DNA of 34,721 nucleotides from Fidelibacterota bacterium (GTDB lineage Bacteria; Fidelibacterota; Marinisomatia; Marinisomatales; UBA1611), in contig JAOHKG010000009.1 of NCBI GenBank assembly GCA_028101095.1, positions 1-34,721 of the forward strand, in the 5' to 3' direction. Under the pieces are notes generated by a model. That model saw only the letters and a program-made list of their open reading frames with translations, was not told the DNA's origin and did not search any database. Shown here piece after piece: positions 28,283-33,743 of this stretch. Position 1 is the first letter of the stretch, and every line of letters begins with the position of its first letter. Both the position numbers and the translations under genes were made by a program.

Positions 28283-29056
28283 ATGAAAGAATATATCAAA
28301 GGTTTTTTTACAGCTGTATGCCTAACTACTAGCCTCTTTATTTTTATGAGCTCAAATAATAAAAACTTAGGAGATATCGTTGTTAATAGTATCACGATCG
28401 TTCCGAGTGAGAATGGGGGTGGATTTCTCAAAGCATATAATGCCCAAGGAATGGAGACTGCTTATTTAGGAACGGCACAGGGCGGAGTTGGAGTTTTGGG
28501 ACTTCACAATTCGAGTGGTAACCAACTTGTCTATTTAGGATCGGGTGACAGGGGTTCAGGCTTATTAAAAACATATAATCAATTTGGTGTAGAAAATGTT
28601 TATTTAGGAAATGGAAGTAAAGAAGGTGGAACTTTACAAACATTTAATCAGGATGGGAAACAAACCTCTTTTTTGGGAACGGCTGAAAATGGTGTAGGTG
28701 TTTTAGGTGTTCATAATTCCTCAGGAAAACAGATTTCTTATCTAGGTACAAGTGCTCAAGGTGCGGGGTTCCTGAATATCAATAATAAAGAGGGCCGCTT
28801 ATCTTGCTACTTAGGCTCAGGAAAAGACAGTCGAGGAGGGCATATTCAAACATATAATCCAAATGGGTATTTGACATCATATCTGGGCTCTTCAAGTTCT
28901 AATAGTGGGCTTCTAGATTTAAATAATGAACTTGGAGTAAAAGTAAGTTCAATGGGTGCGATGTATGATAATACAAGCTATAATGGAGATGGCGGCATTA
29001 TGCTTTTTAATAAAAATGGTGAATATGGATGGTCGAAAGATGGTAAAATAGAATGA
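28283..29056 (+). CDS. Membrane-anchored or secreted repeat protein (predicted beta-solenoid)
   Basis: N-terminal hydrophobic segment, then about 8 repeats of 22-25 aa with the pattern G-G-x-L-x-x-x-N-x-x-G-x-x-x-x-Y-L-G. Confidence 0.75.
   Translation: MKEYIKGFFTAVCLTTSLFIFMSSNNKNLGDIVVNSITIVPSENGGGFLKAYNAQGMETAYLGTAQGGVGVLGLHNSSGNQLVYLGSGDRGSGLLKTYNQFGVENVYLGNGSKEGGTLQTFNQDGKQTSFLGTAENGVGVLGVHNSSGKQISYLGTSAQGAGFLNINNKEGRLSCYLGSGKDSRGGHIQTYNPNGYLTSYLGSSSSNSGLLDLNNELGVKVSSMGAMYDNTSYNGDGGIMLFNKNGEYGWSKDGKIE
28421..28965 (+). repeat. Coding tandem repeat, degenerate 66-75 bp units
   Basis: Units include GVGVLGLHNSSGNQLVYLG and GVGVLGVHNSSGKQISYLG, exactly 69 codons apart (nt 28484 and 28691). 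Confidence 0.8.
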
Positions 29057-30558: not shown

Positions 30559-30978
30559 ATGATTTCAACAAGATTTCATCTTGCTTTTCCTGTACATGAC
30601 CTTGGTCTTGCTAGAAAATTTTACACAGATATTCTAGAATGTGAGGTTGGTCGAGAATCTAGTAATTGGATTGATTTTAATCTTTTTGGACATCAAATTG
30701 TTGCGCATCTTTCTCCAGAAGATTGTAATGTAACGATGACAAACTATGTTGATGGAGATAACGTTCCAATTCGTCATTTTGGATTGATCCTACCATGGAA
30801 TGAATGGGAAAAACTATATAAAAATCTTCAAAAAAATAACATTATATTTCATATTAAGCCCAAGATAAGATTCAAAGATCAAAATGGTGAACAGGGAACT
30901 TTTTTCTTAAAAGATCCTAGTGGTAATGGTTTAGAGTTTAAAAGTTTTAAAGATTTCAAGTACATTTTTAAGAAATAA
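30559..30978 (+). CDS. VOC/glyoxalase-family protein
   Basis: RFHLAFPVHDLGLARKFYTDILECEVGRES...GTFFLKDPSGNGLEFKSF. Confidence 0.87.
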   Translation: MISTRFHLAFPVHDLGLARKFYTDILECEVGRESSNWIDFNLFGHQIVAHLSPEDCNVTMTNYVDGDNVPIRHFGLILPWNEWEKLYKNLQKNNIIFHIKPKIRFKDQNGEQGTFFLKDPSGNGLEFKSFKDFKYIFKK

Positions 30979-30988
30979 GAGTAAGTAC

Positions 30989-32323
30989 ATGCCTAAAATA
31001 AATTTTCTTCCAGATAAAAAGGTATTAGAAGTTGAAAATGGAGAAACAATTCTTCAGACAGCAATTCGTAATAATATTCCTCACGTTAATGCATGCGGTG
31101 GAGAAGGAAAATGTACCACTTGTAGGCTTGTGATTTTAGAGGGCATAGAAAATTGTTCAGAACAAACAGAACAAGAAAAAGCTCTTAAAGAAAAAGTTCA
31201 TACTACCGATGAATTTAGGCTTGCATGCCAGACTCAAGCTGATGGAGATATAACAGTTAGAAGATTAGTTCTAAATAAAGAAGATATCGAATATGTTTCT
31301 GAAGGAGGTATTTCTGGTCGATTAGGTGAAACAAAAAAAATTGCAATTTTATTTAGCGATATCAGAGGGTTCACTCCTTTTTCAGAAAAATTGACGCCCT
31401 ATGATGTAGTCTTTATTTTAAATCGATATTTCACAAGAATGGTAAAATCAGTTGAAGATAATAATGGTACAGTTGATAATTATATTGGTGATGGAATGGT
31501 TGCTATTTTTGGCCTTCATGATGAGGGAAATTCTGCAAGATCTGCTGTAAAAGCTGCACTTAATATGTGTGATGAAATGGATGATATGAAACCATACCTT
31601 AAAACAATGTATGGGCAAGATTTTGACATTGGAATTGGTATTCATTGGGGTGAAGCGGTTGTTGGTGATATTGGTGCTGGTAAATCAAAACGTTTAACCG
31701 CTATTGGGGATTCAATGAACTTTGCGAGTCGTGTTGAATCGGCAAACAAACAATTTCAATCCCGTTTACTAGTTTCTGAAGAAGTTCATAACGAAATAAA
31801 AGATTCTATTGTTGTCAAAGATTTTATGCGTACGAATTTGCCAGGGATCGAAGGTCGAGTAACACTATACGAGATAGAAGATATTAATTTTTCAGAAGAA
31901 GAGAGTTTAAACTCTGAATTAGTTGAAGATGGTATTACTTGGAATAAAGGTCCTAAAATAGAACTATTTGAAGAAGCACCACAGCAGGTTGTGAAAATCA
32001 AAAGAGAAGATGTTCTAATTGTTAAAATAGAGCAAAAATATTATGCATTAAATGATAAATGCCCCCATGCATTTCTTAGCTTAATTGGAAGTGATATTGA
32101 CATTAAAAATGAAACTATTGCATGCAGATGGCATAAAAGTGAATTTTGTTATAAAACTGGAGAAGTTCGGGAATGGATGAAGTTAAGTAGTTTTCAGAAA
32201 ATGCTAGGCAAGATGGGCTTAAATGCAGAAGCTCAAGAAGTTTCACAAATGGAGCAGTTGCCAATCGATGTTTATTCAACAAAAGAAAAAGATGGTCATG
32301 TTTGGATTGGTTTAAATAATTAA
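30989..32323 (+). CDS. 2Fe-2S ferredoxin - class III nucleotide cyclase - Rieske domain fusion
   Basis: N-terminal CGGEGKCTTC...LACQ; CHD with LFSDIRGFTPFSE, YIGDGMVAIFG and GDSMNFASRVES; C-terminal Rieske CPH...CRWH. Confidence 0.93.
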   Translation: MPKINFLPDKKVLEVENGETILQTAIRNNIPHVNACGGEGKCTTCRLVILEGIENCSEQTEQEKALKEKVHTTDEFRLACQTQADGDITVRRLVLNKEDIEYVSEGGISGRLGETKKIAILFSDIRGFTPFSEKLTPYDVVFILNRYFTRMVKSVEDNNGTVDNYIGDGMVAIFGLHDEGNSARSAVKAALNMCDEMDDMKPYLKTMYGQDFDIGIGIHWGEAVVGDIGAGKSKRLTAIGDSMNFASRVESANKQFQSRLLVSEEVHNEIKDSIVVKDFMRTNLPGIEGRVTLYEIEDINFSEEESLNSELVEDGITWNKGPKIELFEEAPQQVVKIKREDVLIVKIEQKYYALNDKCPHAFLSLIGSDIDIKNETIACRWHKSEFCYKTGEVREWMKLSSFQKMLGKMGLNAEAQEVSQMEQLPIDVYSTKEKDGHVWIGLNN

Positions 32324-32344: not shown

Positions 32345-32752
32345 ATGAAAGAAAATATAAAATGGACAAAACTAACTGATATCAAGAGTTTCGAATTAAA
32401 ACCTCAACAATTAATAAAGGTAAAGCGTGATGAAATTCTAATTATTAAAGACGATACGAACTTTCATGCACTAAATAATAGATGTCCACATATGGGGCTT
32501 AGTTTGAATGCAAGTGAGTGTAATATGAAGGACAAGACAATTCATTGTAAGTTCCATTCAAGTTCATTTTCGTATAAATCCGGAGAAGTAAATGACTGGC
32601 TGAATGTTAAAGGATTTGAAAAATTCATGGTTTGGCTTTATTCTAAATTTGATAAAGATGCCAAAGAAATGATGTCGATGAAGCCAGCCAAAGCTGAAGT
32701 CTTTAAAACCAAAGTCGAAGAAGAACATGTATGGGTTGGGATCGAGGACTAA
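32345..32752 (+). CDS. Rieske [2Fe-2S] protein, stand-alone paralog 1
   Basis: CPHMGLSLNASECNMKDKTIHCKFHSSSFSYKSGEV; aligns along its length with the cyclase C-terminal domain. Confidence 0.9.
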   Translation: MKENIKWTKLTDIKSFELKPQQLIKVKRDEILIIKDDTNFHALNNRCPHMGLSLNASECNMKDKTIHCKFHSSSFSYKSGEVNDWLNVKGFEKFMVWLYSKFDKDAKEMMSMKPAKAEVFKTKVEEEHVWVGIED

Positions 32753-32797: not shown

Positions 32798-33238
32798 ATG
32801 GCTGAAAATAATAATAAAGAGTTTACTGAAGGAAATATTCTTTGGAAAAATGTGGCAACCGTATCAAGTTTTGATAAAAAAGAACAACAGGTATTTAACG
32901 TAAATAAAAATGAAATACTTATTGCTAAAGTAGGTGATAAATTTAAAGCAATGCAAAGCAGGTGTCCTCACGCAGGTCTTTCAATGCTTGGAAGCCAAAT
33001 AAACTCGGAAAAAGATCTTATTTTTTGCAAGTGGCATAATACCAGTTTTTGTTACAAAGATGGAAAAGTTGATAAATGGGTTGATGTACCACCTTATCAG
33101 AAAAAATTGGTTAAGGTTCTTGCACTATTTAGTAAGAAATTGAAGCAGATGGTCGAAATGCCTGCAACCCCAATAGAAATTTTTAAAATTCAAGTCATTG
33201 AAAAAAATGTGTGGGTTGGAATAGAGGTCGCAAATTAG
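32798..33238 (+). CDS. Rieske [2Fe-2S] protein, stand-alone paralog 2
   Basis: CPHAGLSMLGSQINSEKDLIFCKWHNTSFCYKDGKV; C-terminal NVWVGIEV as in the other two. Confidence 0.9.
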   Translation: MAENNNKEFTEGNILWKNVATVSSFDKKEQQVFNVNKNEILIAKVGDKFKAMQSRCPHAGLSMLGSQINSEKDLIFCKWHNTSFCYKDGKVDKWVDVPPYQKKLVKVLALFSKKLKQMVEMPATPIEIFKIQVIEKNVWVGIEVAN

Positions 33239-33743
33239 AACGTTTCGGTACTTTGTTTTACTTTTAATTATTTCCTCATCATTAATCAACTGTAAAGATG
33301 TATGGTATGATAATAATCTTAAAGATATAGAAGATCTGTCTTTAATTCTAAATGCTCGAGGCGTTGAAGATAATGTTTGGGAAAAAAGAATCTATAGCTT
33401 TATGGAATTAAGATTTTTAGAACATAAAATTAATATTGTGAACAGCCAGATCCCCAAATTAGTTTTGGATGTTAATATAATAGATTCAAGAGTTGAGAAG
33501 ACTTCTTCTTTTTTAGTGTCTTTGAGTTTATATAATTACAGTATATCTGAGCCAATGTATTATAAATCTATTGCAGATACATTAATTACCAAAAAGCTCA
33601 TGACAAGCAAGGTTTTCTCCACTGAAATGATGGGGCAATCATCATCAAATAATTTATATAGAGATGTTGAAAAATCATTAAATAAATTAATCTCTATTTT
33701 TTTAGACCAATGGTATAGGGATAATCCTTTTAAGCAGTTTTAA
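33234..33743 (+). CDS. Putative lipoprotein, probable non-AUG (ATT) start
   Basis: The track ORF starts at 33402, but the open frame upstream encodes RTFRYFVLLLIISSSLINCKDVW, a lipoprotein signal with Cys. No ATG/GTG/TTG lies before the signal; ATT at 33234 is preceded by AGAGGT. Confidence 0.55.
   Translation: MRTFRYFVLLLIISSSLINCKDVWYDNNLKDIEDLSLILNARGVEDNVWEKRIYSFMELRFLEHKINIVNSQIPKLVLDVNIIDSRVEKTSSFLVSLSLYNYSISEPMYYKSIADTLITKKLMTSKVFSTEMMGQSSSNNLYRDVEKSLNKLISIFLDQWYRDNPFKQF

Follow-up and report, generated by a model that had tools for sequence, protein, structure and literature searches.

A Fer2-CHD-Rieske protein encoded in the window

The window, by which we mean the whole stretch of 34,721 nucleotides analysed here, carries on its forward strand (30989..32323) an open reading frame with an ATG start that encodes a protein of 444 aa with known full-length relatives. 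A preliminary description had read this protein as a ferredoxin (Fer2), a class III cyclase homology domain (CHD) and a Rieske domain in one chain and, indeed, all three scored above their Pfam cut-offs: Fer2 with 41.0 bits (aa 9-84; cut-off 21), Guanylate_cyc with 78.8 bits (aa 114-296; cut-off 21.9) and Rieske with 44.7 bits (aa 329-399; cut-off 20.3). The N-terminal [2Fe-2S] ferredoxin domain (aa 1-95; 30989..31273, forward strand, as are all following features with a strand) is of the adrenodoxin/ISC type. Its ligands, C36-x5-C42-x2-C45-x34-C80, fit the pattern C-x5-C-x2-C-x~35-C of this type, ISC/adrenodoxin-type ferredoxins gave the best score (NCBIfam fdx_isc, 54.9 bits, which is below the equivalog cut-off of that family) and ferredoxin 1i7h was found as a structure match of the window protein by phmmer. 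The open reading frame starts at the Fer2 domain and no 6TM cytochrome b-like anchor precedes it.

A linker (aa 96-112; 31274..31324), bounded by residues L95, D99 and G113 that are invariant in 21 proteins, connects Fer2 with the class III CHD (aa 113-298; 31325..31882), which was identified by Pfam and by phmmer matches to CyaB (3r5g) and 2w01. The CHD contains the metal-binding Asp residues D124 (FSDIRG) and D168 (YIGDG) and the transition-state residues N244 and R248; the codon for Asn164, which takes the position of the adenine-selecting Lys in the alignment to CyaB and 2w01, lies at 31478..31480. A second linker (aa 299-316; 31883..31936), which is acidic and fast-evolving according to its dN/dS, leads to the C-terminal Rieske [2Fe-2S] domain (aa 317-444; 31937..32320; Pfam) with the ligands C358-x-H360 ... 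C379-x2-H382 and a ~30-residue insertion that follows the second of its ligand boxes. Its profile matches the Rieske ferredoxins of toluene, biphenyl and carbazole dioxygenases. The disulfide Cys pair of bc1-type Rieske proteins is absent from both boxes (CPHAFLSL and CRWHKSEF), so the domain is not of the high-potential bc1 type and a low potential is likely. An AlphaFold2 model of the fusion, built from two full-length sequences, had a mean pLDDT of 31 and was too poor to define domain contacts.

Distribution of the fusion

Including the window protein, 20 full-length relatives were found in 19 of 245 Neomarinimicrobiota genomes. The window's own family accounts for 17 of these genomes (of 33 in the family), one of which, G018, has two copies; the others are G045, from another family of the same order, and G172, a more distant member of the same class. 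The closest named relative of the window contig is Candidatus Neomarinimicrobiota bacterium AH-657-N17, and a scan of genome contigs with the single protein gave no more than one close relative, apparently the G001 genome. All copies other than that of G172 are uninterrupted and about 442-446 aa long; they form three clades, set by identity and tree: A with nine members (window included), B with six and C with four. Several genomes of the family lack the fusion gene despite being at least 92% complete, and this patchy presence (17/33) indicates an accessory role.

The copy in G172 (L063:10374-11975, contig C1) has the architecture CDGSH-CDGSH-Fer2-CHD-Rieske with four predicted Fe-S sites, the two CDGSH motifs scoring 65.8 bits. 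The same contig also carries possibly misbinned metabolic genes; therefore, the taxonomy of G172 is uncertain and the bin may be contaminated.

Phyla beyond Neomarinimicrobiota were sampled through plasmid records only. Among these, plasmids of Rhizobium etli 8C-3 and R. gallicum R602sp encode a three-domain protein that is 36-37% identical to the window protein over 100% of the query; the two rhizobial copies are 97% identical to each other. Scans of viral contigs gave matches to the CHD only, with neither Fer2 nor Rieske among them, and the Fer2 scan of these contigs was empty.

The window's genome is a draft of 76 contigs and 60% completeness, a setting in which assembly or binning may join separate genes, and a misassembly had been named beforehand as something that would undo the reading as a fusion. 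The three-domain open reading frame is uninterrupted in 22 proteins, namely in copies of about 442-446 aa from 18 Neomarinimicrobiota genomes, in G172 and on two complete Rhizobium plasmids. Since the fusion is kept across genomes and plasmids, an artefact is excluded.

The preliminary description knew ferredoxin-CHD fusions, but none with an additional C-terminal Rieske domain. In line with this, our full-text literature search, which covered few subscription papers, brought up no paper that describes a cyclase with a Rieske domain, nor any relevant work on Marinimicrobia cyclases; the architecture itself, however, is not confined to this organism. The Rieske-bearing form thus adds to the known ferredoxin-cyclase kind and appears to be unstudied so far.

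Genes next to the fusion gene and cyclic nucleotide receptors

A gene for a VOC/glyoxalase-like protein (30559..30978, +; Pfam Glyoxalase, 31.7 bits) ends 10 nt before the fusion gene. By synteny, such a gene is the nearest upstream neighbour in 14 of the 15 loci of clades A and B, but in none of the four clade C loci. On the other side, each of the nine clade A loci has a gene for a solo Rieske protein just downstream of the fusion gene; in the window there are two such genes. The first (32345..32752, +; 135 aa; Pfam, 53.4 bits) is 38% identical to the fused domain; the second (32798..33238, +; 146 aa; Pfam, 47.7 bits) is a paralogue also present in the congener G001 and groups in the tree with the solo protein of G001 (support 0.999). 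The solo Rieske proteins fall within the group of fused Rieske domains in the tree (support 0.81-0.82), a placement that a duplication within the family would produce.

Directly downstream, at 33402-33743 of the window, follows a member of a conserved family without a Pfam match; it has 113 aa here and 166 aa in relatives and is, therefore, probably truncated or mis-started. Across the loci, the neighbours comprise VOC and Rieske proteins, this 166-aa family and a weak DUF5683-like family. Further upstream in the window, 28283-29056 encodes a protein of 257 aa with glycine-rich imperfect repeats (GGVGVLGLHNSSG..., TYNQFGVENVYLGNG...) that belongs to no Pfam family.

No gene for a cNMP receptor was recognised beside the fusion gene. 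Domains binding cNMPs were present in all 35 related genomes searched, and the phosphate-binding cassette FGE...RSA of CRP-type receptors was found in each of the six receptor loci inspected.

On the R. etli 8C-3 plasmid pRsp8C3c (L059:342-9383), the fusion gene follows a cluster encoding a catechol dioxygenase, a ring-hydroxylating dioxygenase and a Fer2 reductase. In R. gallicum, the gene has a different location with no dioxygenase genes nearby. Because the aromatic dioxygenase neighbourhood is not kept with a copy of 97% identity, it was dropped as a clue to function.

Conservation and selection

The motifs for Fer2, cyclase and Rieske sit where the preliminary description had placed them and are invariant or nearly so down to ~37% identity, so they are no chance matches. 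In an alignment of 21 proteins, which takes in two members without a Rieske domain, the four Fer2 cysteines, D124, D168, N244 and R248 are invariant, and Rieske ligands are missing solely in the two members that lack this domain. All three domains are under purifying selection: where dS was measurable, pairwise dN/dS was about 0.01-0.09 for Fer2, 0.03-0.06 for the CHD and 0.03-0.14 for Rieske, values which are rough since many pairwise dS are near saturation. With complete ligand sets and purifying selection on both sides of the CHD, the view that two different Fe-S clusters flank the cyclase holds at the level of sequence.

The linkers behave differently. The Fer2-CHD linker is constrained (dN/dS 0.04-0.06 where dS was measurable) whereas the CHD-Rieske linker drifts (0.19-0.39 under the same restriction), which suggests that the ferredoxin is rigidly coupled to the cyclase and the Rieske domain is held on a flexible tether.

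These data also bear on a reading in which the CHD is dead or purely regulatory and the protein serves as a scaffold for electron transfer from Fer2 to Rieske, together with the solo Rieske proteins or an oxygenase. The combination of Fer2 and Rieske recalls the reductase-ferredoxin chain of ring-hydroxylating dioxygenases, the R. etli gene stands after an aromatic dioxygenase cluster, and the purine-selecting position of the CHD is changed from Lys to Asn. However, neither the metal Asp pair nor the transition-state Asn/Arg varies, and in most dN/dS comparisons the CHD is under the strongest constraint of the three domains; moreover, the nearly identical R. gallicum copy lies away from dioxygenase genes and no oxygenase gene was recognised adjoining the Neomarinimicrobiota loci. 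We regard such a scaffold as very unlikely.

Purine-selecting residues and the product

The first purine-selecting position is occupied by Lys in adenylate cyclases and by Glu in guanylate cyclases (PMC4215837). By phmmer, N164 aligns with the Lys of CyaB (TIDKFVGD) and with the Glu of 2w01 (TIDEFMGDG). The purine-selecting pair of the fusion is N164/T237, and Asn plus Thr were found in 22 of 22 Fer2-CHD-Rieske proteins. Other cyclases matched by a motif expression had Lys in 68 of 70 cases, Asn in one and Asp in one; these counts are a sample, since the expression misses variant motifs such as that of L003, which also has Asn. This L003 (L003:808-2079, contig C3 of the window's own genome G000) is a separate membrane cyclase, and L002, which is cut at a contig start, resembles a second cyclase of this type.

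The assignment as a class III cyclase made in the preliminary description, therefore, stands with regard to the metal-binding Asp and the transition-state Asn and Arg, and has to be amended at the purine-selecting position, where the Asn is neither the Lys of adenylate cyclases nor the Glu of guanylate cyclases. With Asn164/Thr237, the protein has neither the Lys plus Asp/Thr that define class III adenylate cyclases sensu stricto nor, with Asn164, the Glu that defines guanylate cyclases. Because Asn164 replaces the Lys, the product (cAMP, cGMP or another nucleotide) cannot be named from the sequence, and the enzyme could take another nucleotide or be weak. As judged from these residues, "cyclase" is a safe label for the fusion and "adenylate cyclase" is not.

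One possibility is that an Fe-S regulated cyclase makes a nucleotide other than cAMP, such as cGMP or a pyrimidine product as in Pycsar, and does not feed a classical cAMP-CRP pathway. It would agree with the Asn164 seen in 22 of 22 proteins at the place of the Lys of adenylate and the Glu of guanylate cyclases, and the PADLOC model of PycC (PDLC00734) gave 94 bits with the window protein and 114.5 bits with the Rhizobium relative. However, class III cyclases without a Rieske domain reached 75-88 bits on the same model, so that most of the PycC signal is generic. Moreover, no PycTM- or PycTIR-like effector was recognised beside the fusion gene, the published specificity residues of PycC (Y/D/R, F/R/Q and F/K/F) include no Asn (PMC11224242), and the Asn is also present in the membrane cyclase L003 of the same genome. 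A product other than cAMP is, in our view, rather improbable but deserves consideration, the more so as it overlaps with our preferred explanation, which leaves the product open. Membership in Pycsar was rejected: control cyclases score nearly as high and no adjacent effector gene was recognised.

Possible function in redox signalling

Most class III cyclases sense their signals through PAS, GAF, HAMP, BLUF or receptor membrane domains. A cyclase joined to two Fe-S electron carriers probably converts a redox or Fe-S state into a chemical signal. We favour, with some confidence, a class III nucleotide cyclase that is soluble and homodimeric, with an output that depends on the redox state or the integrity of its Fe-S clusters and is read by CRP-type or other cNMP receptors. 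The adrenodoxin-type Fer2 would be the input domain, coupled to the catalytic domain via the short constrained linker, and the geometry of the cyclase dimer would change when the [2Fe-2S] cluster of Fer2 is oxidised, reduced or lost. The loosely linked Rieske domain of the dioxygenase-ferredoxin type may give electrons to, or take them from, the Fer2 cluster or external partners, for example a co-encoded solo Rieske protein, and the resulting cyclic nucleotide would act on proteins of the CRP family or other cNMP-binding proteins. The three-domain build and its conservation, the complete cluster ligands and catalytic residues, the purifying selection and the cNMP receptors in the related genomes searched are observations. 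Cluster loading, dimerisation, the direction of electron flow, the product and the gating, for which the preliminary description had likewise suggested redox state or electron flow, are elements that we infer. More far-reaching versions, in which electrons cross the cyclase dimer between Fer2 and Rieske, the solo Rieske proteins are dedicated partners, the output reports electron flow and Asn164/Thr237 confers a nucleotide preference that differs from those of known adenylate or guanylate cyclases, are speculative and we give them little weight.

The input could also be the cluster itself: its loss or nitrosylation by oxygen, peroxide, NO or iron starvation would act as an apo/holo switch like that of FNR, and reversible electron transfer would play no part. 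Exposed 2Fe-2S clusters are chemically labile, and the additional CDGSH motifs in G172 fit sensing of cluster status as well as they fit an electron path. Against this, an ISC-type ferredoxin and a Rieske domain of the dioxygenase-ferredoxin kind are electron-transfer types and not typical labile sensor folds, and the adjoining solo Rieske paralogues suggest electron exchange; we consider a pure integrity sensor unlikely.

If the preferred reading as an Fe-S-controlled cyclase is true, the fusion would link redox or Fe-S status directly to a second messenger in SAR406 (Neomarinimicrobiota), a widespread and largely uncultured phylum of the ocean, and would represent a compact, genetically encoded converter of redox state into a cyclic nucleotide. 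The Rhizobium copies make the fusion testable in culturable bacteria, and the invariant Asn at the purine-selecting position poses a separate, directly testable question of cyclase specificity.

Comparison with known systems

In the CHD tree, the ferredoxin-linked cyclases sampled form one clade (support 0.966) with two branches. One (0.998) comprises membrane Fer2-cyclases with Lys at the purine-selecting position; the other (0.982) is soluble and has Asn in the Rieske-bearing members and Asp in a Rieske-less protein from Hymenobacter. By this phylogeny, the fusion and its soluble relatives are the sister group of the membrane-bound cytochrome b-ferredoxin cyclases known from the literature. 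In these class IIIb cyclases, a ferredoxin precedes the CHD and follows an anchor that resembles cytochrome b and is predicted to bind two hemes (PMC4821796). The membrane branch matches them, which indicates that the coupling of electron carriers to cyclases recurs. Like the fusion, the class IIIb enzymes with a 6TM cytochrome b-like part (Rhodopseudomonas palustris Q132R4; cluster 1 in PMC4821796) have Fer2 directly N-terminal to the CHD, and the membrane Fer2-cyclases of rhizobia and G172 share the 0.966 clade and the electron-carrier logic with it. Unlike the fusion, the membrane type has predicted hemes, no Rieske domain and Lys in six examined proteins. Two Fer2-cyclases of the membrane-anchored type, both with the purine-position Lys, are encoded in the G172 bin (L063:7698-9380 and L064:5472-7169), the former on contig C1 together with the CDGSH fusion.

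The Hymenobacter volaticus protein (WP_245126431.1) is, like the fusion, a soluble Fer2-CHD protein and aligns with 66% of the window protein at 40% identity, but lacks the Rieske domain and has Asp/Ala instead of Asn/Thr as purine-selecting pair. CyaB of Pseudomonas aeruginosa (3r5g) and Cya2 of Synechocystis (2w01), the best sequence matches with solved structures, share the common class III core; in contrast to the fusion, the solved chains have no Fe-S domains, and the purine position is taken by Lys in CyaB and by Glu in Cya2. PycC of Pycsar has a class III CHD like the fusion (PDLC00734, 94 bits) but different specificity residues. Finally, the Rieske ferredoxins of toluene, biphenyl and carbazole dioxygenases (4emj, 2e4p, 3dqy, 1vck) have, as the fusion, CxH...CxxH ligands and no bc1-type disulfide Cys; they are, however, free-standing carriers of oxygenases, whereas the fused domain has an extra insertion and resides on a cyclase.
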